From: Alphaproteobacteria bacterium
GTDB lineage: Bacteria > Pseudomonadota > Alphaproteobacteria > WRAU01 > Hepatincolaceae
Direction: 5' to 3'
DNA length: 46,430 bases
NCBI GenBank assembly: GCA_009780035.1
Contig: WRAU01000009.1
Coordinates: forward strand, 24,001 to 70,430
This document shows, piece by piece, positions 4,779 to 44,944 of this stretch (within the stretch, counting starts at the first letter, position 1; each line of letters starts with the position of its first letter). The notes below the pieces were generated by a model. The model did no database searches. It had not been told where the DNA came from and saw nothing but the letters and a program-made list of their open reading frames with translations. The position numbers and the translations under genes are program-made.

Positions 4779-4977
4779 TAACGACCCTATTACACAATGT
4801 AAATTCCGCCCATTAGAATATATGGTATTTTTTCATATGCTAAAAATTGGGCGGGAGGACAGAGAATACAATACTCATTTTGGGAAACCTAATGGGGAAT
4901 AATCTTACTCTTTTACATTGTGTAGAGTCGTTAACCTCCCGCTCATTATTAATTTAACCTTTAACGAGGAATACATA
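4779..4977 (+). promoter_or_regulatory. Structured leader RNA with long covarying stem and possible pseudoknot (copy 1)
   Basis: The 200 bases before the small gene at 4978 form a defined fold. The outer stem pairs 4779-4803 with 4912-4932 (TAACGACCC and ACACAATGTAAA on the left). A local hairpin pairs CCGCCCA (4806-4812) with TGGGCGG (4849-4855). GCGGGAGG (4851-4858) lies inside the stem and is perfectly complementary to CCTCCCGC (4935-4942) just outside it, which would make a pseudoknot. CGTTAA (4929-4934) can alternatively pair with TTAACG beside the ribosome binding site (about 4961-4966). A second copy on the minus strand (7807-7987) keeps these elements with different stem bases that still pair. 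This suggests a regulatory RNA; no known riboswitch class was recognised. Confidence 0.7.
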
Positions 4978-7806: not shown

Positions 7807-7987
7807 TTTCTGTTCCTCGTTAAAGGGTTAATGATGAGCGGGAGGTTAACGACTCTACAGAAACAAAGAAAGAGTGAGATTATTCCCCAAATGGGTATTA
7901 TATTCTCTGCCCTCCCGCCCATACCATAATATATAACTCTTCAAGTCATGTATTATGACAAAGCTATTTGTTTCTGTGGGTCGTTAA
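7807..7987 (-). promoter_or_regulatory. Structured leader RNA with possible pseudoknot (copy 2)
   Basis: Inverted second copy of the leader at 4779-4977. On the minus strand TAACGACCC-ACAGAAACAAA (7986-7967) pairs with TTTGTTTCTGT-A-GAGTCGTTA (7867-7847). The bases differ from copy 1 (ACACAATGTAAA / TTTACATTGTGT), yet pairing is kept. The internal hairpin is a different one (CATAATA / TATTATG). GCGGGAGG (7918-7911) and its partner CCTCCCGC (7845-7838) are conserved, as is the stretch reading CAGAGAATA and later GGGGAATAATCT. The rest of the 7617-8121 gap shows no gene besides the deleted copy. Confidence 0.7.
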
Positions 7988-11946: not shown

Positions 11947-11959
11947 TATTTCATCTCAT

Positions 11960-13429: not shown

Positions 13430-13435
13430 AAAAAT

Positions 13436-14929: not shown

Positions 14930-14933
14930 TTAC

Positions 14934-15350
14934 CTATTTCTCGCCTTCATTGGTATCCCAATCTAATAGCAGATGATCGTTATCATCTCTTTTATTAATC
15001 ATTGCCAGTTCCACCTCATTAATGGTGCCGTATCTTTTATAAATTATGTAAATTAAAGAAAAAGCAACAGCACTAACTGCAATTCCTACTACAATAGCTG
15101 TAAGCATTAAAACATGAGGTATCGGATTGCTGAAGGTTTCCTCTAAATTAGGATTATAAACAGGAGATACTCCGCCTTTTATTTTAGCAATAAGAACAAA
15201 AAAGAGAATTATCCCCCCCTGCATGATGTTCATGCCGATAACCTTTTTTATAAGATTCTGTTCAAATATTAAGATATAAAGACCGATTACAATCATCATT
15301 GCTGCAAGAATATAAGGGTAGTTGCTTAAAATATTTGTCCAATACTGCAT
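14934..15350 (-). CDS. mnhC: Mrp/Mnh antiporter subunit C
   Basis: 138 residues with three helices, homologous to NuoK. The motif GLYILIFEQNLIKKVIGMNIMQGGIILFFVLIAK (a helix pair, about residues 23-56) and DPIPHVLMLTAIVVGIA-type sequence (here NPIPHVLMLTAIVVGIAVSA) are diagnostic for MnhC. A hydrophilic tail of about 35 residues ends in LDWDTNEGEK. It is a small integral subunit that packs against MnhD. Nine bases separate it from the fused B subunit upstream. Confidence 0.92.
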   Translation of the reverse strand: MQYWTNILSNYPYILAAMMIVIGLYILIFEQNLIKKVIGMNIMQGGIILFFVLIAKIKGGVSPVYNPNLEETFSNPIPHVLMLTAIVVGIAVSAVAFSLIYIIYKRYGTINEVELAMINKRDDNDHLLLDWDTNEGEK

Positions 15351-15359
15351 GAATTATAC

Positions 15360-16385
15360 CTAACTTTTTAACTTATTATAAAACTGGCTGATAATTATTG
15401 CGGTTGCTGCAAATACTGCCGTCCCGACGCCTAACTCAATTGCAAATAAGCCGAGGTGATAGGCTGAGGCAGTAGATTTCGCAAAAACTGAATAATCTAA
15501 ATATTTGCCGCCTAAAAGCATGCTTAATATGCCAACACTTATAAAGATTAAAACTCCAAGCGCTGCAAAGTATAGCAAATATTTAATACTCATAAATTGA
15601 TTAGCAGTATGTTTGCCGAAGTGGAGTATCATTAAATAATAGCAGGCGGCAATCATAACACCGGCTTGAAAACCGCCGCCGGCGCCGAAATCTCCATGAA
15701 ACTGCGTATAAAAGCCGAATAATAATAATAAAGGAATTAAAGCAAACACAGCAGAGCTAAGAACATAATCTTTAAGAGTTTTGTTTTTAAGCTCTTTAAT
15801 TTCCCGTGAGGAAAGCTCTGCGGCAAGTTCTGATTTATCTATCTGTAAAACTAAACAAACACCCACTGCTCCGATTAAAATTACAATAGCTTCGCCTAAG
15901 GTATCAAAACCTCTGAACGATCCTAAAATCATGGTTACCATATTAGGAATGCCGAAAGTTTTATAGCTGGTGGTGGTGTAAACTTTATAAATTATGTTAG
16001 AGTTGGTTATATTATTAATGTTGCCGAAAGTTGGGGCATAGCCGAGTGCATCTATCATTATGAAGAAAATTACCGCTAGCATAACAGCATTAAAAAGATT
16101 TGGTAAAGTAAATTTAGGGAATCTTTGAATAGGGTTGTAGCCGTCTATATGATAGGCTCTGGTTAAATATATTATAATTAACATTAAAATGGTAGATATG
16201 CCGGTGCCGATGGCAATTTCGGTAAGGGCAACATCTATAGCGTCTAGCAGCACATAAATAACGGCAGTTATTATGGAAATTAAACCGGTAATTAAAACAA
16301 AAACCAGCAAATCATTAACAAATAATAAGCTAATAACAATAACTGCCAGCAGTAATAAAAATAGTATTAAAAGAGTATCATACAT
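15360..16385 (-). CDS. mnhB: Fused Mrp/Mnh subunit: DUF4040/MbhE-like region plus MnhB
   Basis: 341 residues, about ten helices, joining pieces that are separate or attached to MnhA elsewhere. Residues 1-75 resemble the DUF4040 domain (LLDAIDVALTEIAIGTGIST). Residues 95-185 resemble the MbhE-like part (GIPNMVTMILGSFRGFDTLGEA). From about 205 comes MnhB with the signature FHGDFGAGGGFQAGVMIAACYY. In Bacillus-type Mrp the first two regions are the C-terminal end of MnhA; here MnhA is split and that end is fused to MnhB. Its ATG abuts the mnhG stop with no spacer, which supports coupled translation. Confidence 0.88.
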   Translation of the reverse strand: MYDTLLILFLLLLAVIVISLLFVNDLLVFVLITGLISIITAVIYVLLDAIDVALTEIAIGTGISTILMLIIIYLTRAYHIDGYNPIQRFPKFTLPNLFNAVMLAVIFFIMIDALGYAPTFGNINNITNSNIIYKVYTTTSYKTFGIPNMVTMILGSFRGFDTLGEAIVILIGAVGVCLVLQIDKSELAAELSSREIKELKNKTLKDYVLSSAVFALIPLLLLFGFYTQFHGDFGAGGGFQAGVMIAACYYLMILHFGKHTANQFMSIKYLLYFAALGVLIFISVGILSMLLGGKYLDYSVFAKSTASAYHLGLFAIELGVGTAVFAATAIIISQFYNKLKS

Positions 16386-16721
16386 TTATTTAATTATCTT
16401 CCTTTCAATGCCTTGTGCAAAAATTTTCTGCTCTCTGTTAATAAAAATCTGCATTAAAGCATAGCTTGAAGGTGCAGAGAATAAGGTTATAAATATTGAA
16501 AAGAATATTGGCTTAAAACTTACAAGAGCTATGCCGGAATGGATAGCCAAACTTAAACAGATAAAAAATATGCCAAGACTGTCAATAATTACTAAGGCAT
16601 GCTGTTTATTGTAAAGTTCTTTAAAACGGAATAAGCCGAATATCCCAATGGCGCAAAAAATCAAACCGCTGCTTAAAAAAATAACAAAAAGAATTTCCTT
16701 AGCAGCAATAAGTATATTCAT
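16386..16721 (-). CDS. mnhG: Mrp/Mnh antiporter subunit G
   Basis: 111 residues, three helices. The pattern SSGLIFCAIGIFGLFRFKELYNKQHALVII is the diverged family motif G-x-x-G-L-x-R-x-x-D-x-Y-x-R-x-H-A; the usual Asp of 'RLPDFY' is Glu here. It is an integral subunit of unknown individual role. Gene order E-F-G is retained and spacing to neighbours is zero to three bases. A short basic cytoplasmic tail follows the last helix. Confidence 0.85.
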   Translation of the reverse strand: MNILIAAKEILFVIFLSSGLIFCAIGIFGLFRFKELYNKQHALVIIDSLGIFFICLSLAIHSGIALVSFKPIFFSIFITLFSAPSSYALMQIFINREQKIFAQGIERKIIK

Positions 16722-16724
16722 TGT

Positions 16725-17006
16725 TTATTCCTTTCTTTTTAAATTTATTTCGAAATATTTTTTTAATCCTAAAATGCCGATAAAACTTAAAACAGCATAA
16801 GCTAAAGCTAAATCTATGTATTCGGGTTTGCCTATATAATAGCAATATATGGCGATAAAAACTGCGCATAGATTATTAAAAGGAGCAATAATTTGAATTT
16901 TCTCGTAAATATTTTTTGCTTTAAAAAACGCGAACAGCAGAGTCATAATTAACAGAACGATAACAATTAAGCCGGCAAATAAAATAATTTTTGTATCGAT
17001 TATCAT
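16725..17006 (-). CDS. mnhF: Mrp/Mnh antiporter subunit F
   Basis: 93 residues, three membrane helices. KIQIIAPFNNLCAVFIAIYCYY corresponds to the family's 'GPT..DR' loop and second helix, and the final helix region EYIDLALAYAVLSFIGILGLKKYFE is diagnostic (an Asp-Ile-Ala-like motif followed by 'SFLG'). The 'GPT-DR' motif itself is worn down, as in other reduced alphaproteobacterial versions. Seven bases after mnhE and three before mnhG. Confidence 0.85.
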   Translation of the reverse strand: MIIDTKIILFAGLIVIVLLIMTLLFAFFKAKNIYEKIQIIAPFNNLCAVFIAIYCYYIGKPEYIDLALAYAVLSFIGILGLKKYFEINLKRKE

Positions 17007-17013
17007 ATTCAGC

Positions 17014-17493
17014 TTATTCCTTTATATTTTTCAGCAGATCTTCTTCCAGTTGTAAAACTTTTCTATACATGGTGCCGTCAAGAGATTCGTTCATACTTTC
17101 TATGGTTAAAGAATGAATTAAAAATTCGTTTTCATCTGCCCTTAAAATAATAGTTTCCGGAGGAAGCGTTACAGAATTTGCAAAAATAGTTATGCCGTAA
17201 TTGGTTTTAAAAGTATTTTTTATTTTAAAAACCTGAGGGCTGAGGTCGTTTTTTATAATAGTCCGCGCCACGCGAAAATTAGATATAATAATTTCTTTGG
17301 CTAAATAAAGCGTGTAAAGAAAAAGTTTTAAAGAATTAATGGCAAATATTTCTTTAAAACCAGCATCTTTTTTAGCTTTTTTATATAAAAAAAAGCCGAT
17401 AGTTATAAAAATTAAACCCGGAACTACTGGTAAAACGCTAAAGTGTCCTGAAAGAATAAACCATAAACCAATTAAAATTAAAAATAACCGCAT
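17014..17493 (-). CDS. mnhE: Mrp/Mnh antiporter subunit E
   Basis: 159 residues. Two N-terminal helices (about residues 2-40) and a third (about 52-70), then the cytoplasmic MnhE domain: EIIISNFRVARTIIKNDLSPQVFKIK and the well-conserved NSVTLPPETIILRADENEFLIHSL. It ends with an EEDLLKNIKE helix. First gene of the operon (minus strand), so its promoter should lie in 17494-17600. The whole set exchanges cytoplasmic Na+ (or K+) for external protons, supporting pH and salt balance. Confidence 0.92.
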   Translation of the reverse strand: MRLFLILIGLWFILSGHFSVLPVVPGLIFITIGFFLYKKAKKDAGFKEIFAINSLKLFLYTLYLAKEIIISNFRVARTIIKNDLSPQVFKIKNTFKTNYGITIFANSVTLPPETIILRADENEFLIHSLTIESMNESLDGTMYRKVLQLEEDLLKNIKE

Positions 17494-17815: not shown

Positions 17816-18058
17816 TATATGCCTCATGTTAAAGCCCAAACTACTTAAAATTTATGAACTTTAAGTTTGTTTTACAGATTTTTTAGTTGATATGTTGTTT
17901 TTAGATAGAATTCACTTGACAACTATACAATTTTTATATACATTTTAAGTATAATTGTGCGTTAAGACAAACTATTCTATTCTTTTAAAGAATAAAATAT
18001 ATTTTACAAAAACATCAATTATAAATTGTAAATAAATAATATCATAAAAAGGAAAAAA

Positions 18059-18347: not shown

Positions 18348-19916
18348 ATGAAAAACCCTAACATACAGGATATGCTTAAGGTTATTGTTAAAGATTTTGA
18401 GAAATTCTCACAGAATTTTCTATATATTAGAAGTAAAAACAGTTCAATAACCCCGCTGGTTTTTAATAAGGAGCAGCAGTATATCCACAGTATTTTACAA
18501 CAGCAGAAACAGTTGCAAGGAAAGGTGCGCGCTTTAATTTTAAAGGGGCGTCAGATTGGGGCAACTACATATGTTTCTGCCAGATGCTATCATTACATAA
18601 TATTTCATGTTGGTTCTAAAAGTTTTGTTCTATGCCATCAGCAAAGAGCGACTGATAATATTTTTGCTGTTATGCAAAGATATTACCACAATAGCCCTAA
18701 ATCTCTGAAGCCTAAAGCATTTATTGGCAGAGGTAGATATATTAATTTTAATAATATTAATAGCGGCTGCACTTTTGCAACGGCTGGCGGCGCAGAGGTT
18801 GGCAGATCGGATACCATACAGTTTTTTCATGGCAGCGAGGTGGCTTTTTGGAATAATTCCGATAATCACTTGTCTTCAATCTTAATGTCAGTGCCGGATA
18901 CTGCTGAAAGCGAGGTGATTTTAGAAAGCACATCCAATGGCTCCAGCGGACTTTTTTATAATATGTGCATGGAGGCAGAGGCTGGCAGAAGCGAATATAA
19001 TTTAATATTTCTGCCTTGGCATTGGCATAGTGAGTATGCAGATACAGCGGCGGATATAGAGTTTTCACAGGAATGGCTTAGCTATCAAGCAACCCATAAA
19101 CTAACAATTCCGCAGCTGAATTGGGCTTACCTTAAAAATCGCAGCCTTTGTGCGAATAATCTTGATGATATAAATAAGCCGAGCGCTAGATTCCATAGGG
19201 AGTTTCCGGCTACAGTAGCAGAGGCTTTTATGGCAGCAGATGATAATAAACTAATTCCTCTGGATAAACTTTTAGTGAAATCTATAAAAAAAGAAGATTT
19301 TATAATAGATGGCAGCAGCAATAAACAACCGCTTATTCTAGGGGTAGATGTGGCTTATGGCGGGGGAGACTTCTCTTGGATTATTGACAGAGAGGGCAAT
19401 TTTCTTGGTTTTAATGTGAATGAAAAAATTAATACTAAAGATACTATGGAGCTGGTAGGGATTCTCTCCCATTTAATAAATAAACACTCGCCTTACAAAG
19501 TCTGCATAGATGCCGGAGGCGGCGGAATCGGAGTTTACGACCGTCTATGTGAGTTATTTCCTAAGGATATTCTGGAGTTGGTGCAGTTTGGCAGCAAAGC
19601 ACAAAATTCAACAAAATATTTTAATAAAAGGGCGGAAATGTGAGGACTTTTAAGTGAATTTATTAAAGAAGAGGGGCATATTGTTTTTAATGATACTTTA
19701 TTACAACAAATAAGTAGTGTAAAATATGGATATAATTCTTTAGGACAGCTTAAAATAGAATCTAAAGACGATATAAAAAAAAGATTAAAAACATCTCCCG
19801 ATGGCGGCGATGCCTGTGCGCTAACCTTTGCCTGCAATAATTTTAAAAGGATATTGATAGGAGAAAAACTCAATGGAATCAAGGGAATAGGAGAGTATAG
19901 CCCATTCACTTGGTAG
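18348..19916 (+). CDS. terL: Phage terminase large subunit, with one in-frame UGA read as Trp
   Basis: The DNA-packaging ATPase/nuclease of a tailed phage, 522 residues if UGA at 19641-19643 (codon 432) is read through. The ATPase part has the Walker-A-like LKGRQIGATT (about residues 65-74) and the later ESTSNGSSGLFYN. The RNase-H-like nuclease starts with ILGVDVAYGGGDFSW (about residue 330). Beyond the UGA the same frame continues 90 codons to TAG and contains KTSPDGGDACALTFA, the conserved end of the nuclease with its last Asp. This is direct evidence that the UGA is sense. Seven other Trp codons are UGG. AGGA lies 9 bases before the ATG. Confidence 0.93.
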
Positions 19917-19920
19917 ACAG

Positions 19921-19972
19921 TATTTTGAATCTCTTGGTTTTCTATGGCGTTGTTTCTAGTATAAAATTGGGG
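19921..19972. repeat. Partial (deleted) palindromic repeat
   Basis: Directly after terL: TATTTTGAATCTCTTGGTTT and CTATGGCGTTGTTTCTAGTA match the left arm and the beginning and end of the dispersed palindrome, with the centre missing. It shows that members suffer internal deletions. Confidence 0.55.
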
Positions 19973-20015
19973 GATTTAAAATTAGAAAAATTTTTATTTA
20001 TATTGCAAAATATGC

Positions 20016-20044
20016 TTGACAGGAATAATAGAATCTGCTATAAT
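20016..20044 (+). promoter_or_regulatory. Perfect sigma70-type promoter for the portal operon
   Basis: TTGACA (20016-20021), exactly 17 bases, then TATAAT (20039-20044), preceded by TG in the extended -10 position (CTGCTATAAT). Both hexamers match the vegetative consensus completely. Transcription should begin near 20051, which makes ATG 20083, with AAGG at 20069-20072, the better portal start than ATG 20065. Confidence 0.85.
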
Positions 20045-20082
20045 ATACATATTAAGAATAAAAAATGCAAGGCAACAAAACA

Positions 20083-21603
20083 ATGAAAGATAAATACTTA
20101 AAAGAAAAGAATCTTAGCAACAGTGATAAAAACCAAGAAATTGCCAATTGGGCAATAAATTTAGCAGAAAAGCTATCTTCGCAAAGGAGCTCATTAGAAC
20201 AACTTTGGCAGCAGATAAGCCGTTATGTTCTGCCGCAAAAAGGTGAAGAATCTAAAAACAATGCTGAGGTTTACGATTCCACAGCGGTAATTGCTGCAGA
20301 ATACTTAGTGGCAGGGATTTGGTCTTTAATTTCTAACAGTTCGCTTAACTGGTTTAATATTAAGCAGAAAACTTCGCAGGAATCAGCATTTAACCTTAAA
20401 GACTGGCTAGATAAGGCTAATTTAGCTATGAAAGAAATGCTGAATAATCCTAAGCGGGGATTCTATCATAAATCTTACGAATTTTATACAGACTTAGTCT
20501 GCTATGGCACGGCGGTATTTTATTTATCTGAAAATTTAGAAGATAATTCTATAAATTATCAAACCTTAAACCTTAGCAGCACTTACTTGCATAGCGTGTA
20601 TAAAGATAATGACTGCATTCTTAGAAAAATCAGCCTTAATGCGTCGTCGTGCGTTGATTTGTTTGGATATGCTAATTTAAGCCCAGAAATTCTTAAGGCT
20701 AAAGCAGATGATTCCCAAGAGATTTTCAACTTTCTGCATCTTTGTATTCCTACAAAATATTTCGGCGATAAAACCGCCCAGCTTAAGGGCATGAAATACT
20801 CGTCTTTTTATATAGATATGCAGAATTCCGCAGTTATCCTTAAATCAGGACACTACGAGTTTCCCTATATGGTTGCAAGATGGTATACATCTACGCAAAA
20901 CTCTTACGGACAAAGCCCGGCGATGGGGGTGCTTGCGGATATTAAAATGATTAACGCCATGAGTAAAACCATGCTGGTTTCAGCACAGAAGCAGGTAGAT
21001 CCGCCGATTCTTGCACCCAGCGAATCCAGTGTGCAAGGCATTAAGGCAGCGCCGGGAGGCATTATTTACGGCGGAATAGATCCGCTTACAGGCAATCAGC
21101 TTTTAAAACCGCTTAGTCTTGGCGGCGATTTATCTAGTGCCTATGAGCTGCAAGAGCAAAGACGCAATACTATTAAAGAAGCGTTTTATACCTCGCTGCT
21201 GGTTTATGCTTATGCCAGCAATGCTACGGCTACGGAAGTGGTAGCAACAAATGAACAGAAGCTAAGAATTTTAGGATCAAAAGTAGCAAGAATTCAAGGA
21301 GAATTTTTATACCCGCTGTTAATAAGGCAATTAGGAATTATGTATCGCTTAAACTTATTGCCGAAGCTGCCGCAGGGCATAAAATTTGAGGATATTGCTT
21401 TTGAGGTAGAGTTTATGAATTCATGGAACCGCTACCAAAAAATTCAAGAAAGCAATGGCTTATTCCAATTGAATGCTATGGTAGATAAAATAAGAGATTT
21501 CAATCCCGATGTGGTAAATGTGCTAAATTGAGATGAAATTTTAAAATTGGTAGCACAGGCTAATGGTGTTCCAATAAATGTGTTTAACAACAAAGGAGAT
21601 TAA
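20083..21603 (+). CDS. Phage portal (head-tail connector) protein, with one in-frame UGA
   Basis: 506 residues from ATG 20083 (512 from ATG 20065, which lacks a ribosome site). Portal rings form the DNA gate of the capsid. The N-terminus has the podovirus 'head-tail connector' pattern, SSLEQLWQQISRYVLPQKGE, and the middle has QSPAMGVLADIKMINAMSKT and KQVDPPILAPSES. The UGA at 21529-21531 (codon 483) reads LNWDEILKLVAQANGVP in the continued frame, ending at TAA 21601 after 23 more codons. The tail resembles the usual helical portal end. The ribosome binding site of the next gene (AAAGGAG) lies inside this extension. Seven other Trp codons are UGG. Confidence 0.92.
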
Positions 21604-21604
21604 T

Positions 21605-21907
21605 ATGAAAAACGGATACAAATGGCTATGGGCAGTTTTTGGCGGCGAGCAAGCGGCAGAGGCAGCATCTGCCTGAAATGAACTTTTTAACTTAGAAGAC
21701 GAGCGATGCTTAAACATTTTAAAAGATCTAGCCAGCTATTGCAACTTTACATCTTCGTCATTCAGGCTGGGCGATTCTCATCAAACCGCTTTTAACGAGG
21801 GTGCTAGAGATGTGTTTCTGCATATATTAGAGATGGCAGATTTAGATCTTAATATTGTATTGCAATTAATTTTAAATAAAAATAAGGAGAATAATAATGA
21901 TAAATAA
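21605..21907 (+). CDS. Bbp19-like small phage protein, with one in-frame UGA
   Basis: A 100-residue protein that cannot be seen under the standard code, because UGA 21674-21676 is its 24th codon. Read as Trp, the frame runs AASAWNELFNLED, then YCNFTSSSFRLGDSHQTAF and NEGARDVFLHILEMADLD to TAA. This resembles the Bbp19 family of Bordetella phage BPP-1-like podoviruses, small proteins coded next to the portal, with an Asn/Arg-Glu-Gly-x-Arg motif. The ATG follows AAAGGAG by six bases. The end overlaps the next gene by 11 bases. Its role is presumably in virion assembly; this is inferred from family and position. Confidence 0.82.
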
Positions 21908-22346
21908 CGCAGCAGAACAAAACAATGAAGGAACGCAGCCAACGGCAGATAATCCGCAGGCAGCAAATATAGATGCCGGCATAGATTTACTGCTGGCAAA
22001 GCTAGAACAATTATGGGGAGAAGATTTAGATAAAAACCTTCTGCTTAGTAAAAGAGGCTTGGCATGGCTTGGTTTTGATGAAGAAACTATAAAAGAAGAC
22101 TTCAGCGAAATTGTTTTTTTAAATAAAATGGTAGATTTAGGAAAACTTCTGTCAGAAGATGCAGTGGCAGCTTCAGGTGAAAACAACAGTTTTAACATGA
22201 CCCCAGCCGAAGCCAAAAAAATCCGCTCGCAAATAATTTCGCAGAAAGATATTCTTGAAGCGCTGAATAATAAAGGCAATATGCGTCATAATGAGGTTTT
22301 AAGTTATGTAAACCGATTAAACGAAATTATTGCCAAAGAATTTTAA
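21897..22346 (+). CDS. Putative phage scaffolding/capsid assembly protein
   Basis: 149 residues, acidic and helical, with a disordered Asn/Gln/Ala-rich start (about 25 residues), a central LLAKLEQLWGEDLDKNL helix and a C-terminal charged helix ending VNRLNEIIAKEF. Small acidic helical proteins between the portal and the major capsid gene are usually scaffolds, and the composition fits, but there is no diagnostic motif. The ATG at 21897 overlaps the end of the Bbp19-like gene, with AAGGAG upstream. No in-frame UGA; its two Trp codons are UGG. Two palindromic repeats follow the stop. Confidence 0.65.
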   Translation: MINNAAEQNNEGTQPTADNPQAANIDAGIDLLLAKLEQLWGEDLDKNLLLSKRGLAWLGFDEETIKEDFSEIVFLNKMVDLGKLLSEDAVAASGENNSFNMTPAEAKKIRSQIISQKDILEALNNKGNMRHNEVLSYVNRLNEIIAKEF

Positions 22347-22440
22347 TATTTTGGTTTTCTATGTCGTTGCAAAGCCGCTTATGTATTATTCATACATTGC
22401 ACAGCTTAGCGCCTAATAGAAATTCCAAACTATTAAAATT
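22340..22440. repeat. Palindromic repeat, first of a tandem pair
   Basis: Arms TTTTAATATTTTGGTTTTCT / AGAAATTCCAAACTATTAAA enclose an inner region with CTTATGTATTATTCATACA. It is about 90% identical to the next copy at 22447-22543. It starts at the stop codon of the scaffold-like gene and may end the first virion transcript. Confidence 0.85.
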
Positions 22441-22446
22441 CTTAAA

Positions 22447-22543
22447 CTAATATTTTGGTTTTCTATATTGTTGCAAAGCTGCTTATGTATTATTCACACA
22501 CTGCACAGCTTAGCGCCTAATAGAAATTCCAAACTATTAAAAT
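22447..22543. repeat. Palindromic repeat, second of a tandem pair
   Basis: Near copy of 22340-22440. Differences include GCAAAGCTGC against GCAAAGCCGC and TTCACACACTGC against TTCATACATTGC. The tandem arrangement argues for local duplication of the element. Confidence 0.85.
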
Positions 22544-22583
22544 TACTAAATTTTTAAACAAATAACTATCTAGGAGAGAGCAA

Positions 22584-23111
22584 ATGGGTGATATGCAATG
22601 TTTTAGTTTATTTATAAACAACAATATTTACAAACATAAATTTGATTTTGAGGTTATTAAAGAAGATGTTGATGTATTGAATATCACTTTGTATAACCTG
22701 CTGGATGAAGAATTAAAAAATACAGATGTTGAAATTTTTATTGAAAACTTCTCTATTTTTAAAGGCAGAGTAAATACTTATAATTTAGAAGATATAAACG
22801 GGTTTTTAGTATTAAATATTGAAGCGGCTGCCGATAATGCTTTTAATTATAACGAGGTAGATTTTAACGCTCCGTGCAAAGAAAAATTTCCCCTGCAGAA
22901 AGCAAAAATCCAAAGCACTAAAGAGGGTTATAAATATATTCAAATGGATGCCGATTTTCAAGCAAATATTAATGTTGGCGATATCATCAGCCATGATCAA
23001 AGTTTATACGCCATTGAGAGTATAATTTATACAAATGATATGCAAGGAGTTAAACAAGAAATTCATGGAATTAACGATGTATTGCATAATGCTAAATATG
23101 CGCACAGATAG
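22584..23111 (+). CDS. Phage structural-module protein of unknown function
   Basis: 175 residues without any Trp. Mixed strand/helix composition: an N-terminal CFSLFINNNIYKHKFDFEVI, central VEIFIENFSIFKGRVNTYN and a late ADFQANINVGDIISHDQSLY. This order of extended segments suggests a small beta-rich virion protein, but no family was recognised. AGGAGAG lies 8 bases before the ATG. It stands alone between two pairs of palindromic repeats, upstream of the capsid gene, so it may be its own transcript unit. Confidence 0.6.
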   Translation: MGDMQCFSLFINNNIYKHKFDFEVIKEDVDVLNITLYNLLDEELKNTDVEIFIENFSIFKGRVNTYNLEDINGFLVLNIEAAADNAFNYNEVDFNAPCKEKFPLQKAKIQSTKEGYKYIQMDADFQANINVGDIISHDQSLYAIESIIYTNDMQGVKQEIHGINDVLHNAKYAHR

Positions 23112-23211
23112 TTTTTAATATCTTGGCTTTCTATGTTGTTGTTTTGCTGCTTATGTATTATTACACACTTCGCAACAAAACGCCTAATATAAAGCTCAAG
23201 CTATTAAAAAC
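23110..23211. repeat. Palindromic repeat, first of a tandem pair
   Basis: Outer arms GTTTTTAATATCTTGGCTTT / AAAGCTCAAGCTATTAAAAA, inner stem GTTTTGC / GCAACAAAAC (imperfect), loop CTTATGTATTATTACACACTTCG. It begins at the stop of the 22584 gene and is followed at once by a second copy. Confidence 0.85.
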
Positions 23212-23310
23212 AGTTTTGATATCTTGGCTTTCTATGTTGTTGTTTTGCTGCTTATGTATTATTACACACTTCGCGGTAAAACAACAGCATAAAAAATTCA
23301 AGCTATGCGG
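23211..23310. repeat. Palindromic repeat, second of a tandem pair (right arm diverged)
   Basis: The left three quarters repeat 23112-23170 almost exactly (ATATCTTGGCTTTCTATG and following). The inner stem is GTTTTGC with GGTAAAAC, and the right arm is altered (CAACAGCATAAAAAATTCAA). The pair fills the gap before the major capsid leader. Confidence 0.8.
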
Positions 23311-23313
23311 AAC

Positions 23314-23355
23314 TTGAAAAGTTTTAACTTAAATAAAATTTTAAAAACTTTTCAA
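23314..23355 (+). promoter_or_regulatory. Hairpin in the major capsid leader
   Basis: TTGAAAAGTTTT (23314-23325) pairs perfectly with AAAACTTTTCAA (23344-23355), an 18-base loop between. A small GGGCTTAGCCC hairpin (about 23367-23377) and AAAAAAAGGAG at about 23390-23398 follow before the ATG at 23408. It could stabilise or regulate the capsid mRNA; no T tract follows, so it is not an obvious terminator. Confidence 0.55.
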
Positions 23356-23407
23356 TTTTAACAATGGGGCTTAGCCCTTATAACAACTAAAAAAAGGAGA
23401 AACTAAA

Positions 23408-24289
23408 ATGATAACAATAGATATGGCAACTAAAGAAGGCTACAACTATGCCGTTAGACTAAACATGCAGCAGAAAGGGTCAAAGCTGTCGTCCTGCGTC
23501 CGCGAGGAAGAGCAGAAAACAGAACGTTATTATTACGATCAAATTGCCCCGACTGAGGCGGTAGATATTAATGTCCGCAATTCTGACACCCCCTTAATTC
23601 AAACCAACATTGACAGAAGAATGGTGAATTTAATCAGCTCTGACTGAGGGGATTTAATAGATAGAGACGATCAGCTTAAACTTTTAACAGATCCCAGCTC
23701 TGCTTATGCGCTGAATGCCGCCTATGCGCTGGGACGCAAAAAAGATCAAAGAATAATTGATGCAGCGCTTGGTTTAGCTTATTGCGGCAATAAAGGAGAA
23801 ACTAAGGTTCCATTGCCGGAATCGCAAATTATTCCTGTAGATTACTATGAAACTAATTCAGCACAAATCTTAACCTTAGACAAACTAAGAAAGGCAAGAG
23901 AACTGCTAGACGATGCCGATGTAGATGACGACGAAGAACAATACTGCGTAGTCAGCTCTAAGCAAATCAGCAACTTATTGCAAACTACCGAAATAACCAG
24001 CGACGATTACAACACCGTTAAAGCCTTAGTAGACGGCAAAGTAAATACTTTTATGGGTTTTACTTTTAAACGCGTATCTTCGCAGCTGCTTCCAAAAGAA
24101 GATAATGTAAGAAACATCTTCTGCTTTGCCAAAAGCGGCATTCTAATGGCAACCAACGGCGATATAAAAACAGATATAAGCATTCGCACAGATAAAAGAA
24201 TGGCGAAGCAAGTTTATGCTTCAATGTCCTGCGGAGCAACTAGGATGGATGAGAAGAAGGTGGTTAGCATATTTTGCAAAGAACAGTAA
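23408..24289 (+). CDS. Major capsid protein, with one in-frame UGA at a conserved Trp
   Basis: 293 residues if UGA 23645-23647 (codon 80) is Trp; only 79 residues otherwise. The head shows the podovirus capsid pattern: RYYYDQIAPTEAVDINVRN, then TPLIQTNIDRRMVNLISSD-Trp-GDLIDRDDQL. In related capsid proteins the same place reads like 'Y-x-W-A-D-L-I-D-x-x-D', so Trp is expected exactly there. It continues LTDPSSAYALNAAYALGRKK and DQRIIDAALGLAYCGNKGE, well-known blocks of this family. The only Trp codon in the gene is the UGA. There is a strong AAAGGAG ribosome site. Without recoding no capsid could form. Confidence 0.92.
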
Positions 24290-24290
24290 G

Positions 24291-24400
24291 CGGTTTTGGT
24301 CTTTTTGTTTTTATATTTTCTTACTTTACCTCTTACATACTACGGGTATGCTACGAGGTAAAGCTCATGATATAAAAACAAAAGTCCTCAAAACTTAAAT
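24291..24400. repeat. Palindromic repeat
   Basis: Follows the capsid gene. The inner stem TTTACCTC / GAGGTAAA is perfect and the loop contains TACTACGGGTATGCTAC. Outer arms GGTTTTGGTC...and GTCCTCAAAAC. Same subtype as 17606-17713. It separates the capsid unit from the next gene pair. Confidence 0.8.
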
Positions 24401-24423
24401 ATAAATTGAAAAGGAGAAAAATT

Positions 24424-24888
24424 ATGCTGCAAAGCGATCAAATAATGAATGAAAATTCAATGCCGAAAATTAAAAACTCTGCCATAAATTTACAAGGTAA
24501 AATTAAAATTTTAGCCTTTGATGTAAATTTTTCGCAGAAAGAAACAGTTGAACAAGAAGAAATTCTTCTTGTAAAGCTGCCTAAAACAGAAAACCGCATT
24601 ACGCAAATCGGGTTTACCTGCAGCGAAGGCGCAGCTGAAGATACTTTTGACCTGCTGGTGCTAGATGTTTTATATAATGCTGTCAGCAATAAGTATGAAA
24701 TTCTTAAAAGCAGCAATCTTAAAACAGGAATTGCCCTTAACCGCAGCGGCGGCGCACTATTTTATTATAACAATATTATTAAGCCGTCGCCTCAGGTTAA
24801 TGTAGAAAAATACATTGCCCTTAAGGCATCTATCGCTTTTTCTAAAGCGAATATTTTAAACGGCTATGTGCTTTATACTGCGGATTAA
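24424..24888 (+). CDS. Phage structural-module protein of unknown function
   Basis: 154 residues from ATG 24424, chosen because AAGGAG lies 8 bases upstream; a longer frame from TTG 24406 would contain that site. No Trp. The body alternates short strands (GKIKILAFDVNFSQKE, RITQIGFTCSEGAAE, FDLLVLDVLYNAV, YIALKASIAFSKANI), which would suit a beta-sandwich decoration or minor capsid protein. That idea rests on position behind the capsid gene and composition only. It ends four bases before the next ATG, so the two are coupled. Confidence 0.65.
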   Translation: MLQSDQIMNENSMPKIKNSAINLQGKIKILAFDVNFSQKETVEQEEILLVKLPKTENRITQIGFTCSEGAAEDTFDLLVLDVLYNAVSNKYEILKSSNLKTGIALNRSGGALFYYNNIIKPSPQVNVEKYIALKASIAFSKANILNGYVLYTAD

Positions 24889-24892
24889 ATCC

Positions 24893-25468
24893 ATGATATA
24901 CAATAATATAAGAGTATGCAATCGGGCGCTTAGCATGCTTCGCCTGAATCATATTAATTCCCTTGAAGATGAAACTTTTGAAGCGCGCCAATGTAAATTT
25001 TTATACGATATAGCAAAAGCAGAGGTGCTTTCATCTAATATTTGAAAGGCTTGCTTAAAAACCATTGTTTTAAATAATGTTTATAGTAATAAAAACACAA
25101 GGAACGCTGAATACAAGCATGAATTTGTTCTGCCAAGCGATTGCTTAAGAATTTTGCGTGCAGAAGGAAGCGGCAATTATTTAAGGCAAGGTCAGGTTCT
25201 TTACAGCAATAACAGCGAAGTATGCCTTACTTATTTAGCAGATATGGATGTGGCAGATTTGCCTTTAAGTCTAGTGTATTTAATTGTTCTGCGTTTAGCC
25301 ATAGAGCTTTCTTTCAGTTTTTCTGTGGAAGGGGCAGTTCAAAAAAATATTCGGGAATTATATGAAATAGAACTTCGCAAAACTGCCAACCTAGACGCTA
25401 AAGAAGGCAGCGAGATTTTTAACTCAGACAGTCTATTCAGCAGTTCATGGATTGAATCTAGAAACTAA
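24893..25468 (+). CDS. Tail tubular protein A-like, with one in-frame UGA at a conserved Trp
   Basis: 191 residues if UGA 25043-25045 (codon 51) is Trp. The protein begins IRVCNRALSMLRLNHINSLED, the usual gp11/tail-tube-A opening ('CN-x-A-L-x-x-L-G, I-x-S-L'). It continues CKFLYDIAKAEVLSSNI-Trp-KACLKT, where relatives have 'R-x-x-V-L-x-x-x-x-W-x-F-A'. The UGA thus falls on the family's hallmark Trp. LPSDCLRILRAEGSG follows, like the usual 'LP-x-D-x-L-R-V'. Such adaptors bind the portal and prolong the tail tube of short-tailed phages. One other Trp (near the end) is UGG. Start four bases after the previous stop. Confidence 0.88.
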
Positions 25469-25556
25469 TTTTGAATAGTTTGAGCTTTCTATGTCGTTAT
25501 TTTGCCCTTACATACTACGGGCAAAACTTCTAATATAAAGCTCAAACTATTCAAAA
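25469..25556. repeat. Palindromic repeat with perfect 20-bp arms (type copy)
   Basis: Left arm TTTTGAATAGTTTGAGCTTT (25469-25488) is the exact reverse complement of the right arm (25537-25556). Inside lies a second stem TTTTGCCC / GGGCAAAA around TTACATACTAC. This is the cleanest member of the dispersed family. It separates tail-tube A from tail-tube B. Confidence 0.95.
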
Positions 25557-25589
25557 TTTTAAAAAAATAATAAAAGGAGTAATAAAAAC

Positions 25590-27593
25590 ATGAATATAAA
25601 TATCAGTAATTTTAAGTTGGGGGAGGTTTCTAAATATGTTAATAAATATAATTTGAAAAATCTATATTACTCTTCCGCTTCTTGTTTAAAAAATATGAGG
25701 CTAAGCCCGTGGGATATGTTAGCAAGACGCAATGGCAGTAAATTTATTAATAATTTAGTTCATGCTTTTGAGGTTCGGATTATTGCATTGGAAGATAATA
25801 ACAATAACATTCTAATGGAAATTTATCCTACGGTTATTCGTTTTTATTTTAATAACGAGCCCTTAATAAAAAACGGCGAGCATTATAGCATTAATAATAA
25901 TTGGATTAGTGAAGATGAAATTGCCAAACTGAATTATGTCTATGATGATGCCAACAAATGCTACTATTTTTTTTCTGCGGATAGAACTCCAAGTATATTG
26001 AGCTTTGATGAAAATTATAATTTTACCCTAAAAAATGTAGATTATACAGACGGTCCTTATTTAGATATAAATAAAACCAATACAACTCTTAGTTTAAGCG
26101 GAACTACAGGCGAGGTGCAGATTACGGCATCAAGCGATTTATTTAAATCTAATGATGCGCTTTTAAATCAAAAAAGATTCATCCGCATTGCCCATAAAGG
26201 CATATGGGGTGCAGCGCAGATTTCGCAGTTTATAGATGCAAGGAATGTTAAAGCTCAAACCTTTATAGATTTTAACGGCACAGAGGATACTCGTGATTTC
26301 AAGCTAGGAGCATGGGGTGCGGAAATGGGTTATCCAACAATGGCGGCTATTTTCGGCGGGCGCATGTATTACGGAGCATCTAATAAAAACAAAAAAACTA
26401 TCTGGATTTCTAAAACCGGCGATTATACCAATATGTCGCCTACCACAAGGGTAAATGAAAATAGCGTAATAAGCGATATTATTGCAGAAGACAATTCTAT
26501 TACTTTAACTCTGCCGCGCGGCAAAAATATTCTTTGGCTGGGAGCAAATAAAGATAATGTATTGGTGGGTTCTCAAGAGGGAGTTTTTACCTTATTACCG
26601 TATAATATTGAATCGCCTATTTCGCCTTTTAATTATACAGTGGCGGAATTCAATTCGCAAAAGAATTCTAAGCATATGGCAAGCACCGATTTTTTAACCT
26701 TTTATGCTGACTGGCATCAGCAGAATATTTTTGCGATTTCTGTTGATAAAGATAAACTGCTGTCGCTATCGCAGATAAATAGTTGATCGCTGCATTTATT
26801 TGCTTCTAAAATTAAAGATATGCTGTATTTAGACTATCCCTCAAAGGCTTTATGCGTTCTAATGGAAAACGGTTCTCTGGCGCTTGGCTTTATTAATAGC
26901 AGCGGCGACTATCTTAATTATGCTTGAGTTTCGTGTAATTTAGGCGGAGAAGATGCTAAAATTACCGCCATAAGCGCCTCTTACAATAAGGAAAATCAAT
27001 ATCTGTATTTAACGGCAGCAAGAAAAATTAAAGGAAAGGACAGCAGATTTATTGAGGTAATAAATTTTGATTCACTGCAGAATCTTTATTTAGAAAATGC
27101 GGCTATGCCGGTTTATCTTGATTCATATATTCATAAAACCATTAGCAGTAATGTAATTGATTCCTTAGAAATATTTGAGGGTGAAACATTAAGTGTTCTA
27201 TACGGCAATAGCTATTTAGGAGATTTTAAAGTAATAAACGGCAGCATTACAGTGGCAGGCAACAGCTATGCCGATAGCAATGTAATAGTTGGCTATGGTT
27301 TTGCTTCAGTTTATACCACGCCGAATTTAGAAACCGATAGCAGTATGGTAAAAATAGATAAGGCAGATTTAGTTTTTTATAAATCTTCACATATTGATGT
27401 TCTTAATAGCACGGGCAGTATTCTGCAAAGAAATATTTTAGCTAAAACTGCGCCGATGGCTGAATATCAAAATATCATGCTTAATATTAATGGCAGCTGG
27501 GAGAGTAATGCTAATTTAAGCATTCAGCAGTATCTTCCTTTTGCCATGAATATTGTAGCAGTAAACTTAAATTTAAATATATTAAACAAATAA
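25590..27593 (+). CDS. Tail tubular protein B-like, with two in-frame UGA codons
   Basis: 667 residues if UGA 26784-26786 (codon 399) and UGA 26925-26927 (codon 446) are Trp. The N-terminus has the tail-tube-B features of short-tailed phages: FKLGEVSKYV, CLKNMRLSPWDML, ARRNGSKFI. Mid-protein PTMAAIFGGRMYYGASNK, TIWISKTGDYTNM and LGANKDNVLVGSQEGVFTL match the usual 'tiW-S-K-x-G-D-x' and 'L-V-G-T-x-x-G' blocks. The second UGA reads GSLALGFINSSGDYLNYA-Trp, where relatives have 'D-G-x-L...T-Y...x-A-W-x'. The frame then stays open for 221 codons to TAA. Eight other Trp codons are UGG. AAAGGAG precedes the ATG. Confidence 0.88.
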
Positions 27594-27605
27594 AAAGGAG
27601 GAAAT

Positions 27606-27941
27606 ATGTCAGCAATTAATGAATATCAAAAACAGAAAGCCGATATATTAAATAAATCTAACAGTCTTCTTATAGCGCTTAATAATAAAAGAGCGGCAGA
27701 GAAGTCTAAAATTAAAAATAAAACAGCAGCAGGGAGCGGCGGATCTAACGAAGATTTGCAGTATTTTATGGAAAATTCCCTAAATGCCGATAGTGAAGAA
27801 ATTCTTAAAAATCAAAGCGATGCCCTGCAAAGCCTTAAAGAAAAAACGCAGGCGGAAGCTAGATATAATGCCGTTGCTAAAAGAAAGCAAGATTTAGCTA
27901 GTATTAAAAATATCATGTCGTCTTTTTCTAAAATATTTTAA
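27606..27941 (+). CDS. Small coiled-coil virion-module protein
   Basis: 111 residues, no Trp, almost all helical and charged: EYQKQKADILNKSNSLLIAL, a Gly/Ser hinge (AAGSGGSN, about residues 43-50), then ILKNQSDALQSLKEKTQAEA and a final basic helix. AAAGGAGG lies just before the ATG, 12 bases after tail-tube B. Position between tail tube and fibre fits a short internal or tail-associated protein, but no homology is recognised. Confidence 0.6.
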   Translation: MSAINEYQKQKADILNKSNSLLIALNNKRAAEKSKIKNKTAAGSGGSNEDLQYFMENSLNADSEEILKNQSDALQSLKEKTQAEARYNAVAKRKQDLASIKNIMSSFSKIF

Positions 27942-27953
27942 AGAGGAATAATT

Positions 27954-28895
27954 ATGGATTACAAAAATTTTATAAGCTACTTGGCAACTGGACAGGATTC
28001 TTTTACCTGCGAATTTGAAGTGGAGTTCGAGGCGCAAATTGAAGTAATTATTGAAGATAAGCAGCTAGTATATTTAGAAGATTATACAGTTGAGAATTTC
28101 CGCAGTAAAGATAAAGTAGTTAAGCTAAAAGAAAAGTTGGGAAGCAGTCTTTTCCCTAAGCTGATTATTTTAAAAAGAAATGCGGGAATGCAGCGTAAAA
28201 CTAGCTTTCAAGACAACTCGCAAATTAAGGCGAATCTGCTGAATTTAGAATTTGATAATTTAATTGACAATCAAAATTTTTTGAAAGATTTCCTTACCGC
28301 AATCTCTCGCGGGCTGTTAATTAAAGGCGATGGTGATACTGATGGAGGAGGAGACTGCAATTGCAATTGTGATTGCGGCAATAATGGCAATACTGGCGGC
28401 GGAGAAGCAAACAGCGGTGTTGATCCTAGAGATTGGGAAGAAACTGTAAGCGCAGTTGATATTGAGGATAGTTTTGATGCCAGCAGTTTTAAAGAAGTAG
28501 TAATAGATGATGTTAAGCCTTTAACGCATAATACCTATTTTATTTACAGCAGCAATCCTGCAAATCTGCCGGACAGCACTCCCTATAGAATTACAAATTT
28601 TACAAAGATATGAGAACCCTGCAGTATTAGATTTTTTATTGATAAAAGAATTGCCTTTAAAGCAGATGCTGCAGAATTCATGAGAAAAATATATACAGCA
28701 TTAATTATCGGTAAAACGCAAACTGATCTGCTAAGTGTTTATTCTACAAATCAAACCGTGCTGTGCTCTGATGTGATTCGCGGTGAAGAAATAAAAAATA
28801 ATTATAAAGATATGTATGAGGATCTAAATATGGAAGCAAAAGATGAGTTTATTGTATTGCAGCGATACATATTAGACCCCGCACGCGGATATTAA
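27954..28895 (+). CDS. Tail-fibre-like protein with Cys/Gly linker and one in-frame UGA
   Basis: 313 residues if UGA 28611-28613 (codon 220) is Trp. The first 75 residues resemble the T7 gp17-type fibre attachment domain: DSFTCEFEVEFEAQIEVIIE, then LEDYTVENF and FPKLIILKRN, like 'F-x-V-x-F...D-Y-x-V...L-x-I-x-R'. A linker (about residues 125-152) is rich in Gly and Asp and carries CNCNCDC, four alternate cysteines that could bind metal or cross-link. The C-terminal 90 residues after the UGA (FTKI-Trp-EPCSIRFFIDK) read cleanly to TAA. AGAGGAA precedes the ATG. The one other Trp is UGG. Confidence 0.78.
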
Positions 28896-30751: not shown

Positions 30752-30782
30752 AGTTTGTTATTAAAGTTTATTGGAGATGAAG

Positions 30783-32159
30783 ATGAAACTCAAACTACCG
30801 CATACGCTCAGTATTATATTTTCATTAATTATCATTATGGCAGTGTTAACATGGGTGTTGCCGGCTGGACAATTTGATAGGATTCATAATGAAGCAATTG
30901 GTCGTGATGTGGTGGTTCCTGGCACTTATAAGGAAGTGCCAAGCAATCCGCAAGGATTCTTAGATACTTTCTCTTCATTTGCCAGAGGGATTGTGAATGC
31001 TGCTGAGGTTATTGCCTATGTATTAATTATTGGCGGGGCATATGGTGTTATTTTAAAAACCGGCGCTATCAACAATGGACTTAAAGCTGCGGTAAAAAAA
31101 CTAGAAGGCAGAGAATTTTTATTGATTCCGGTTCTAATGTTCTTATTTTCTATTGGCGGAACTATGGCAGGGATGTATGAAGAAACACTGGCATTCTATT
31201 TAATTTTAATTCCGCTGATGGTGAGGGCAGGATACGACCCCATTGTGGGCGTAGCTACTATTCTGCTTGGTGTAGGTGCAGGGTTAACCGCATCTATCGG
31301 CAATCCTTTTGCTACAGGAATTGCCTCGCATATTGCTGAAATTCCTATTACTGACGGCATACTATCAAGAGTAATTTTTTATTTTATCTGTTTAGGCACT
31401 TCAATAGCTTATGTGTTATGGTATGCCAATAGAATTAAAAAGAATCCTAAAAAATCTATTTGCTATGCCAATAGAGCTGAGCATCAGGAAAGTTTTGCTA
31501 ATTTAACTAACGAAGAGGGTCATATTCGTTTTGGACTTAATCAAAAGCTGATTATTATAATTTTCTTAGGGCTTATATTTTTTATGATGTATGCAGTGGT
31601 GCAGCTGGGTTGGTGGATTCCTGAAATGACTGTGCTGTTTCTTGCAGGGGCAATGGTAGCGGCAATTCTTGGCGGGTTGAACGAAAAAGAATTTTGGGAT
31701 TCTTTTGTAGAAGGTTCTAAAGATTTACTCTATGCTGCAATTGTGGTTGGGCTAACTCGCGCTATTGTGATTGTGGCTCAGGACGGTGCAATTATTGATA
31801 CAATTTTACACGGCATTGTAAGTGTTCTATCAGGGCTTTCACAAAATTTATTTATTATGTTAAATCAAATTTTTCAGCTGTTTATAGCATTTTTAGTGCC
31901 AAGCTCAAGCGGACATGCGGCACTTACCATGCCTTTAATGGCACCGCTAGCAGATCTTTTCAGCGTGCCCCGTTCTTCTGTGGTTACTGCTTATCAGACG
32001 GCATCAGGATTGATTAATCAGTTTGCCCCAACTGCCGCTGTGGTAATGGCAGCTATTGGCATGGCGAAAATATCTTACTTTCATTGGTTGAAATTTGTAA
32101 TGCCTTTATTGTTTGTGCAGTTGATTATTGCCCTAGTGGTGTTAGTATTTACATTGTAA
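30783..32159 (+). CDS. YfcC-family membrane transporter
   Basis: 458 residues from ATG 30783, which lies six bases behind GGAG; an ATG at 30777 abuts that site and is less likely. About 12 helices. It has the YfcC/ArcD-like features LTWVLPAGQFDR near the N-terminus, FLFSIGGTMAGMYEETLAFYLILIP and a late SSSGHAALTMPLMAPLADLF. Members are thought to carry amino acids or carboxylates, often in exchange; the substrate here is unknown. Ends before an intrinsic terminator at 32167. It has its own strong promoter. Confidence 0.87.
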   Translation: MKLKLPHTLSIIFSLIIIMAVLTWVLPAGQFDRIHNEAIGRDVVVPGTYKEVPSNPQGFLDTFSSFARGIVNAAEVIAYVLIIGGAYGVILKTGAINNGLKAAVKKLEGREFLLIPVLMFLFSIGGTMAGMYEETLAFYLILIPLMVRAGYDPIVGVATILLGVGAGLTASIGNPFATGIASHIAEIPITDGILSRVIFYFICLGTSIAYVLWYANRIKKNPKKSICYANRAEHQESFANLTNEEGHIRFGLNQKLIIIIFLGLIFFMMYAVVQLGWWIPEMTVLFLAGAMVAAILGGLNEKEFWDSFVEGSKDLLYAAIVVGLTRAIVIVAQDGAIIDTILHGIVSVLSGLSQNLFIMLNQIFQLFIAFLVPSSSGHAALTMPLMAPLADLFSVPRSSVVTAYQTASGLINQFAPTAAVVMAAIGMAKISYFHWLKFVMPLLFVQLIIALVVLVFTL

Positions 32160-32166
32160 GGAAATT

Positions 32167-32197
32167 AAAAAAACCTAACAATTTAGGAAGTTTTTTC
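32167..32197. terminator. Intrinsic terminator after the YfcC-like gene
   Basis: A7 then CCTAA-CAAT-TTAGG and, after AAG, T6. The stem is short (5 bp, extended by the A/T tracts). Confidence 0.6.
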
Positions 32198-32269
32198 TTG
32201 ATAAAAATTACTATTAGTTATATAATGGTTTTTTCTTAAATATCATTTTATTTTATCTTGGAGGACATC

Positions 32270-33013
32270 ATGAATTTTGTTAGAAAATTTATTTTACAAA
32301 TTGTAGCATTATTTTTTATTCTGCCATTGGCTGTAAGTGCTTATGCTGATGATAGCGACTATGCGGGTGCTAATCTTAAACTTTTTAGCGGCTATGTTAA
32401 TAGTGATGTTGATTTTTTAGATACAACAAACTTCTTTGTAGAAGTTGAAACTTTTGCAAAAAAAGGTCAGTGGGATATTTATGGTTTTACCGATTTTAAA
32501 TTTAATGACAAAAAAATTGATAGATTAAACTACGATTTTTACAAATACATTGTAAGATACGATGTTATTAATAACTCTAAACTATTTTTAGTATTGCAGG
32601 CGAAAGAAACTTTTAATTATACTGGCGATGGTTTTGTTGGGCTTGGAACACAGTTTGACCTTCCTTTTATGGGAGTTTTAAAAGCCAATGCCATGTATTT
32701 TTTATCTTCAAAAGATAAAGATGGCAAAGAAGTTCAAATTCCAGCTATGATACAGTTTTCTTGGGGAAAAGATTTCGGACAGCTTGGGAATACACAGTTT
32801 AGCCTTTATCATGGCGGCTGGAGTGATATAGATTTATATGAAAAAAGAAAAGATGCTCCTAAAACTGCAGCTGCCTTCCAAATTTATGAAGGTGTTGGTT
32901 TAAATTATGATTCATACGGTTTTGAGTTAGGCTATAAATATTGGATGAATGTTGGCGGGAATAAAAATACCTCAGCTAATAGTGTATTCGGCTATTTAAT
33001 CAAAAGGTTTTAA
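32270..33013 (+). CDS. Tsx/OmpK-like outer-membrane channel
   Basis: 247 residues from ATG 32270, six bases behind GGAGG; a signal peptide follows (MNFVRKFILQIVALFFILPL, cleavage near AYADD). The mature part resembles nucleoside channel Tsx/OmpK: an early NFFVEVETFAKKGQWDIYGFTDF segment (family 'G-x-x-D-x-Y-G-Y-x-D'), repeated amphipathic strands and an end in Phe (YLIKRF). Such channels let nucleosides or other small solutes through the outer membrane. It follows a transporter gene, so the two may serve one substrate. Family call is moderate; outer-membrane location is better supported. Confidence 0.68.
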   Translation: MNFVRKFILQIVALFFILPLAVSAYADDSDYAGANLKLFSGYVNSDVDFLDTTNFFVEVETFAKKGQWDIYGFTDFKFNDKKIDRLNYDFYKYIVRYDVINNSKLFLVLQAKETFNYTGDGFVGLGTQFDLPFMGVLKANAMYFLSSKDKDGKEVQIPAMIQFSWGKDFGQLGNTQFSLYHGGWSDIDLYEKRKDAPKTAAAFQIYEGVGLNYDSYGFELGYKYWMNVGGNKNTSANSVFGYLIKRF

Positions 33014-43497: not shown

Positions 43498-43633
43498 TAT
43501 TTCCTATTAAATAATAGAAAAGCCTTATAAATTAAGCTATAGAGGTAAAATTTAGGTGAGTTTATTAAAGTCTGTATTTGCTTGTATTTGATGGTATGGA
43601 AAGTTTTGTTAGTGGAACAATTACGGCACAATT

Positions 43634-44838: not shown

Positions 44839-44944
44839 GTTTTACCTTTTCTTTTCTATATTTTTTAATAAAATTAACGCCCCACCATCAACTAATTCCA
44901 CACTCTGTGGTTGTTATTAGTTTGTTTATATCTATAACCGGCAT

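Follow-up and report, generated by a model that had tools for sequence, protein, structure and literature searches.

Sense UGA codons in resident phage genes and a tRNA-Trp(UCA) with a common promoter motif suggest a regulon-restricted code in an alphaproteobacterium

Background

Phages that reassign a stop codon and carry suppressor tRNAs are known, with UAG read as Gln (code 15) or UGA read as Trp (code 4) (PMC11210395, PMC10879173; Borges et al. 2022, Nat. Microbiol.). Phages with code 4 are uncommon, and a UCA suppressor tRNA was present in just 11 out of 73 (PMC11210395). Stop-codon recoding has been proposed to serve as a late-gene switch (PMC11210395, PMC10879173; Borges et al. 2022). 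The proposal is hard to test in phages, since they come and go.

In bacteria that read UGA as Trp the recoding extends to the whole genome and has classically been accompanied by the loss of RF2. They include Mycoplasma and Hodgkinia (PMC2704378), and a screen is available (PMC8629427). Alphaproteobacterial gene transfer agents are inherited chromosomal virion clusters with terminase, portal, capsid and tail genes. R-type tailocins resemble headless tails and are under CI/PrtR-like control.

Here we describe an alphaproteobacterial metagenome-assembled genome (MAG; 1.42 Mb, 17 contigs, ~98.8% complete, 0.08% contaminated) in which one chromosome appears to hold two reading rules for UGA. As in recoded phages, the reassigned stop was found at conserved positions in structural, late and lysis genes of a standard-code host, and the decoder is presumably a tRNA of the suppressor type. 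Unlike in recoded phages, the UGA genes are resident chromosomal units, and the virion module is not a mobile phage but an inherited locus, at which relatives have UGG. The gene for the decoder lies in the chromosome far from the particle genes and is not carried by a phage element, it shares an operator-like motif with the UGA genes, and ordinary genes keep UGA as a stop. In UGA=Trp bacteria, too, UGA is read by a tRNA-Trp with a UCA anticodon, but this genome still has RF2 and UGA stops, and the recoding is limited to one gene set. The virion module resembles a gene transfer agent in being an inherited chromosomal cluster with the same kinds of genes, although it is podovirus-like and contains UGA codons. 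A second module, similar to a headless tail with fibres and lysozyme in a genome with CI/LexA-like S24 repressors, recalls R-type tailocins, but the similarity of its genes to known families is slight, and there are 17 UGAs in them. In the open-access literature searched, we found no account of inherited chromosomal genes that read UGA in their own way and have a co-regulated host tRNA. Such a set, fixed in the chromosome together with its decoder, seems to be a new form of stop-codon recoding.

Results

The window, which is the whole stretch of 46,430 nucleotides that was analysed, includes a virion module of eleven ORFs (Table 1). In-frame UGAs were found in seven of them. All eight UGAs listed in the original prediction were recovered at exactly the expected positions, and its hand count of about 28 UGG and 8 UGA codons was reproduced by our recount (28 UGG, 8 UGA). 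It had also stated that the module has no internal UAA or UAG and that no gene ends in UGA. This was correct, as the eleven ORFs had no internal UAA or UAG and ended in UAA (nine ORFs) or UAG (two ORFs).

Table 1. Features of the window and UGA-containing units on other contigs. Positions without a prefix are positions in the window.
Feature	Position	Strand	In-frame UGA	Evidence
Mnh/Mrp antiporter operon, left flank	10312..17493	-		Pfam; collinear with flank of same module in G001
Virion-module promoter/operator region	17916..17996	+		TTGACA at 17916; held-out matrix scan and pattern match
TerL (large terminase)	18348..19916	+	19641 (residue 432), read as Trp	phrog_2 terminase
Portal/head-tail adaptor	20065..21603	+	21529	phrog_332, E=3e-99; W in both same-family relatives
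Small virion-module protein (predicted as Bbp19-like)	21578..21907	+	21674	55-59% identity to same-family orthologues; W at UGA
Virion-module protein	21897..22346	+	none	phrog_3742; syntenic orthologues
Virion-module protein, without Trp	22584..23111	+		ORF; no match in family search
Major capsid protein	23408..24289	+	23645	phrog_3437, E=7e-75; W in 5/5 homologues
Virion-module protein, without Trp	24406..24888	+		ORF
Tail protein (predicted as tail-tube A)	24866..25468	+	25043	phrog_394; W in 5/5 homologues
Tail protein (predicted as tail-tube B)	25590..27593	+	26784, 26925	phrog_376, E=5e-58
Small virion-module protein, without Trp	27606..27941	+		ORF; weak orthologue in G002
Fibre-like protein	27954..28895	+	28611	N-terminal third conserved in both relatives
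DcuC-family transporter and Tsx-like channel genes, right flank	30771..33013	+		Pfam; collinear in G001
Tail-like module	C6:39904-51713		17 UGA, 8 UGG in phage-type genes	DUF276, phage lysozyme and tail-collar matches only
Tail-collar-type fibre genes, three paralogues	C1:163683-164402, C3:44708-45433, C4:133-918		8 UGA, 1 UGG	
AmpDh3-like amidase	C2:156075-156803		1 UGA	UGA aligned with Trp of AmpDh3, AmpDh2 and AmiD

The focal genus is represented by one MAG. Two genomes of the same family (G001 and G002; the comparison covered 1.23 of 1.34 Mb of G001) have these virion genes too, uninterrupted by stops. The sites of the virion-module UGAs were occupied by Trp in 12 of 14 aligned cells from these relatives, and UGG codons of the same module, which served as a control, in 45 of 54. 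When 80 phage contigs were added, Trp was found at the UGA sites in 101 of 106 cells, confirming the expectation that homologues have Trp there. TerL residue 432 was W in 82 of 83 homologues and invariant in both same-family genomes, and a stop at this site would remove the last 90 residues, including the invariant SPDG-D-A block. In the tail protein with two UGAs, site 26925 was W in both relatives, whereas site 26784 was N or Q.

In G001, too, the virion module is flanked by the Mnh operon on one side and by the transporter and channel genes on the other. It has UGG codons there, and the gene order in G002 is the same. The shared locus and the UGG codons of G001 indicate that the module was inherited and domesticated, and that UGG was replaced by UGA in place. 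A PTS EIIBC gene between the module and the right flank (window 29126-30520) had its best G001 match elsewhere and is therefore probably an insertion or a rearrangement. Two matches to sRNA-Xcc1 were also found in the window, at 7829-7919 (-) and 4849-4952 (+), with 48.7 and 36.4 bits, under the Rfam gathering score of 53.

According to the original prediction the special code was a property of the virion module. UGA=Trp was supported there, but the restriction to the module was not, as UGA genes were also found on other contigs (Table 1). They were sought with a coding-score scan, which looks for coding sequence on both sides of a UGA, and by reading with table 4. A small lysis-like cluster contained four additional sense UGAs, and none of the UGA units had an internal UAA or UAG. 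G001 has a tail module of its own in standard code (C1 ~338000-353000), with sheath- and tube-like proteins and homologues of the UGA fibres. Paralogous GT8-type glycosyltransferase genes (C6:45701-46654, C4:1025-2080 and C2:154957-155904) adjoin fibre genes or the amidase, and the C4 copy may carry a UGA near its start.

The base following the sense UGAs was a purine in 29 of 34 cases, compared with 21 of 40 after UGG in the same genes (p = 0.003). U followed a sense UGA directly in 1 of 34 cases, compared with 12 of 27 true UGA stops. A U following UGA promotes termination, and the bias thus fits a competition with RF2.

Among the 33 tRNA genes of the focal genome, one (C1:52667-52740) has the anticodon UCA. 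Its acceptor stem has one U6-U67 mismatch, and TrpRS is encoded by one gene. We searched 398 Pseudomonadota genomes for UCA with a strict pattern of the D arm and anticodon arm of tRNA-Trp, which matched in the focal genome only, while the CCA version of the pattern, used as a control, matched in 44 of 60 genomes. A looser UCA pattern gave many matches in the class, but none of 30 loci inspected was a tRNA, and the stricter pattern was used instead. The tRNA(UCA) gene is beside no UGA gene, there is no tRNA inside the virion module, and neither a theta ribozyme nor another Rfam element was found at the tRNA.

The tRNA(UCA) is preceded by TTGACA-17-CATAAT. The promoter of the tail operon agrees with it at 23 of 29 positions, including 12 of the 17 in the spacer. 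Genome-wide, the sigma-70 consensus is matched at 12/12 positions by just six intergenic promoters that lie no more than 300 bp from a gene, five of them before UGA genes. The core of an operator-like element, the dyad TATNC-N7-GNATA, overlaps the -10 box, and the motif precedes the tRNA(UCA) and all seven main UGA units. Its IUPAC pattern matched 11 times in the genome. Ten matches were intergenic, of which nine lay upstream of the tRNA or a UGA unit and one upstream of rimP-nusA-infB. These counts are descriptive only, because the pattern was drawn from the sites counted, and the test is provided by leave-one-out and held-out ranks. Leave-one-out matrices were built from seven 29-bp sites (tRNA, tail, baseplate-like gene, three fibres and rimP). 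The omitted sites ranked first among the non-training windows of 2.82 million, except for the tRNA site, which ranked second. The three fibre promoters are not independent evidence, because the fibre genes are paralogous. A matrix trained without the virion module found the site upstream of TerL (17937-17955) as the best new window genome-wide, and two sites before the amidase within the top 25 windows. The virion-module operator reads TATACATTTTAAGTATA(AT), with the dyad TATAC-N7-GTATA, and a second, weaker copy lies at 17978-17996. Its TTGACA and TATAAT are separated by 28 bp and not by 17, so that the -35 arrangement differs. With the -35 box left out and just the 19-bp operator core scored, the tRNA site ranked only 27th to 62nd. 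A scan of G001 with the operator matrix gave no strong match.

The motif is not exclusive to UGA genes, as the rimP-nusA-infB operon (C3:125850) is preceded by a promoter of this type, perhaps a sign of some connection to translation or growth control. Further UGA genes were revealed by following weaker operator-like sites, and these weak, post hoc sites are treated as leads. One, at C4:64163, lies between a CI-like repressor gene and a divergent gene and led to a gene for 155 amino acids with one UGA (C4:64280-64747), whose product is weakly similar to a protein in the G001 tail region. Another, at C4:61050, lies before a pair of small genes that together have three UGAs, and paralogues of these genes in a standard-code prophage on C5 have UGG at two of the three UGA sites. 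The genome encodes three CI/LexA-like repressors with HTH_3 and Peptidase_S24 domains (C4:63430-64119, C5:1876-2505 and C1:1415-2065), which had no G001 homologues in the comparison. The first of these has the operator-like site in its divergent promoter region.

The original prediction regarded the host as apparently using the standard code, and this view was upheld. UGA remains the stop of ordinary genes, of which there are ~1,100 in the MAG, and RF2 (prfB) was found over the cut-off with its SPF and GGQ motifs. A crude gene call placed UGA at the end of 72 of 1,157 genes, a few of them being truncated UGA genes, against 40 of 976 in G001, and the share of UGA stops was put at ~5% here and ~4% in G001. 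Gene calls were scripted without a standard gene finder and left out ~11 kb of two contigs. In-frame UGAs in conserved ordinary genes would have pointed to a recoded host. Outside the UGA gene set (243,000 aligned columns), G001 Trp corresponded to UGG 1,319 times and never to UGA, whereas inside the set it corresponded to UGG 22 times and to UGA seven times in 29 columns (Fisher p = 1e-12). Possible read-through in ubiB-dut, ctp-nudix and ogt-dnaE was rejected, since these are adjacent genes in one frame with a true UGA stop between them. Integrase, methylase-fragment and PD-(D/E)XK nuclease genes of an integrative element in the right-hand part of the window (42931-45883) had no sense UGA that we could see.

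Discussion

We suggest, with a probability of about 0.8, that the domesticated phage particles of this bacterium are encoded in a conditional UGA=Trp code restricted to one regulon, and that ordinary genes keep UGA as a stop. At the level of the genome sequence, this reading draws on the sense UGAs, the conservation of Trp at their sites, their confinement to a gene set, the tRNA gene, the intact RF2 and the common motif. Ordinary UGA stops would be read by RF2. In a dispersed regulon, comprising the virion module, the tail-like module, the fibres, the amidase and the lysis-like cluster, UGA would be read as Trp by the chromosomal tRNA-Trp(UCA), which is presumably charged with Trp and would compete with RF2. 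Because the tRNA and the UGA genes share a promoter/operator type, the decoder is probably made while the particle genes are transcribed. Induction of the tRNA together with these genes would mean that complete particle proteins require both transcription and the decoder. The CI-like S24 repressor at C4:63430-64119 is a candidate for the switch, perhaps through its cleavage. Whether the second code also acts as a safety catch, allowing phage particles and lysis proteins to be completed only when the co-regulated tRNA is made, is in our view evenly balanced.

With recoding seemingly fixed in a bacterial chromosome, and decoder and targets under one promoter type, the idea of recoding as a switch becomes directly testable. 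The arrangement may also represent an intermediate step of genetic-code change, in which UGA is ambiguous while RF2 is still present. Annotation tools that choose one code per genome will mislabel such genes as pseudogenes.

A possible but rather doubtful account of the origin is that a recoded phage imported the tRNA together with the tail and fibre genes, and that the older virion module gained its UGAs later. It is a rival on origin only and is compatible with a regulon-restricted code at present. The UGA share of Trp codons, 0.68 in the tail module compared with 0.22 in the virion module, would be expected from such a history. The flanking genes of the tail module are not collinear with those of the G001 tail module, and the gene in the position of the sheath had no detectable orthologue in 57 relatives. 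The protein had no relatives in IMG/VR or phages either, and its structure model (pLDDT 33) was too poor to use. The tRNA itself points the other way. Its closest paralogue is the single tRNA-Trp(CCA) of the same genome, with which it shares the 5′ acceptor strand and the discriminator G. It stands alone on C1 near a tRNA-Leu gene, among genes with G001 orthologues, and no Trp-type UCA tRNA of this pattern was found in IMG/VR.

Non-adaptive drift, in which tRNA-Trp(UCA) causes low constitutive suppression and UGA is tolerated in rarely used genes without any regulatory role, is unlikely. The positions of the sense UGAs within the genes are scattered (KS p = 0.19), and the UGA share in the tail and fibre genes (0.68-0.89) is about that of A-ending codons in other two-fold sets, as expected at mutational equilibrium. 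The host UGA stops had no excess of back-up stops behind them (27 genes, p = 0.43), so strong constitutive readthrough is not indicated, which also agrees with drift. Drift does not account for a promoter/operator common to the tRNA and all main UGA units. It is also at odds with an apparently complete prophage of the same genome (C5:1876-22296, loci L129 and L130), which served as an internal control. This element has a CI/S24 repressor, terminase- and portal-like genes and tail genes, and although rarely used it follows the standard code, with ~38 UGG and no UGA.

The presence of a tRNA-Trp(UCA) could suggest that code 4 applies to the entire organism, or that a change to it is half completed. 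This is very improbable. RF2 is intact, UGA occurs at none of the 1,319 conserved Trp positions outside the UGA gene set, and the usage of UGA stops is not below that of G001, a relative without the tRNA. Code 4 is thus contradicted for the present state, though a future transition is possible.

Hardly any weight can be given to the view that the UGAs are nonsense mutations of a decaying prophage. Resident phage genes frequently decay, but random decay should also produce UAA and UAG, as the original prediction argued. In the main UGA gene set (7,267 codons, 40 UGG) all 34 internal stop triplets were UGA and none was UAA or UAG (p ~1e-22 under random nonsense mutation). The sites are those of conserved Trp, and identity to the relatives was 46.5% before the first UGA and 47.3% after it, indicating no decay of the distal protein parts.

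The idea that UGA encodes selenocysteine or another residue can be dismissed, since the SeC label comes from ARAGORN, which gives it to any UCA tRNA, the tRNA has 74 nt and no long variable arm, no SelB was found over the cut-off in the focal genome, and the UGA sites align with Trp.
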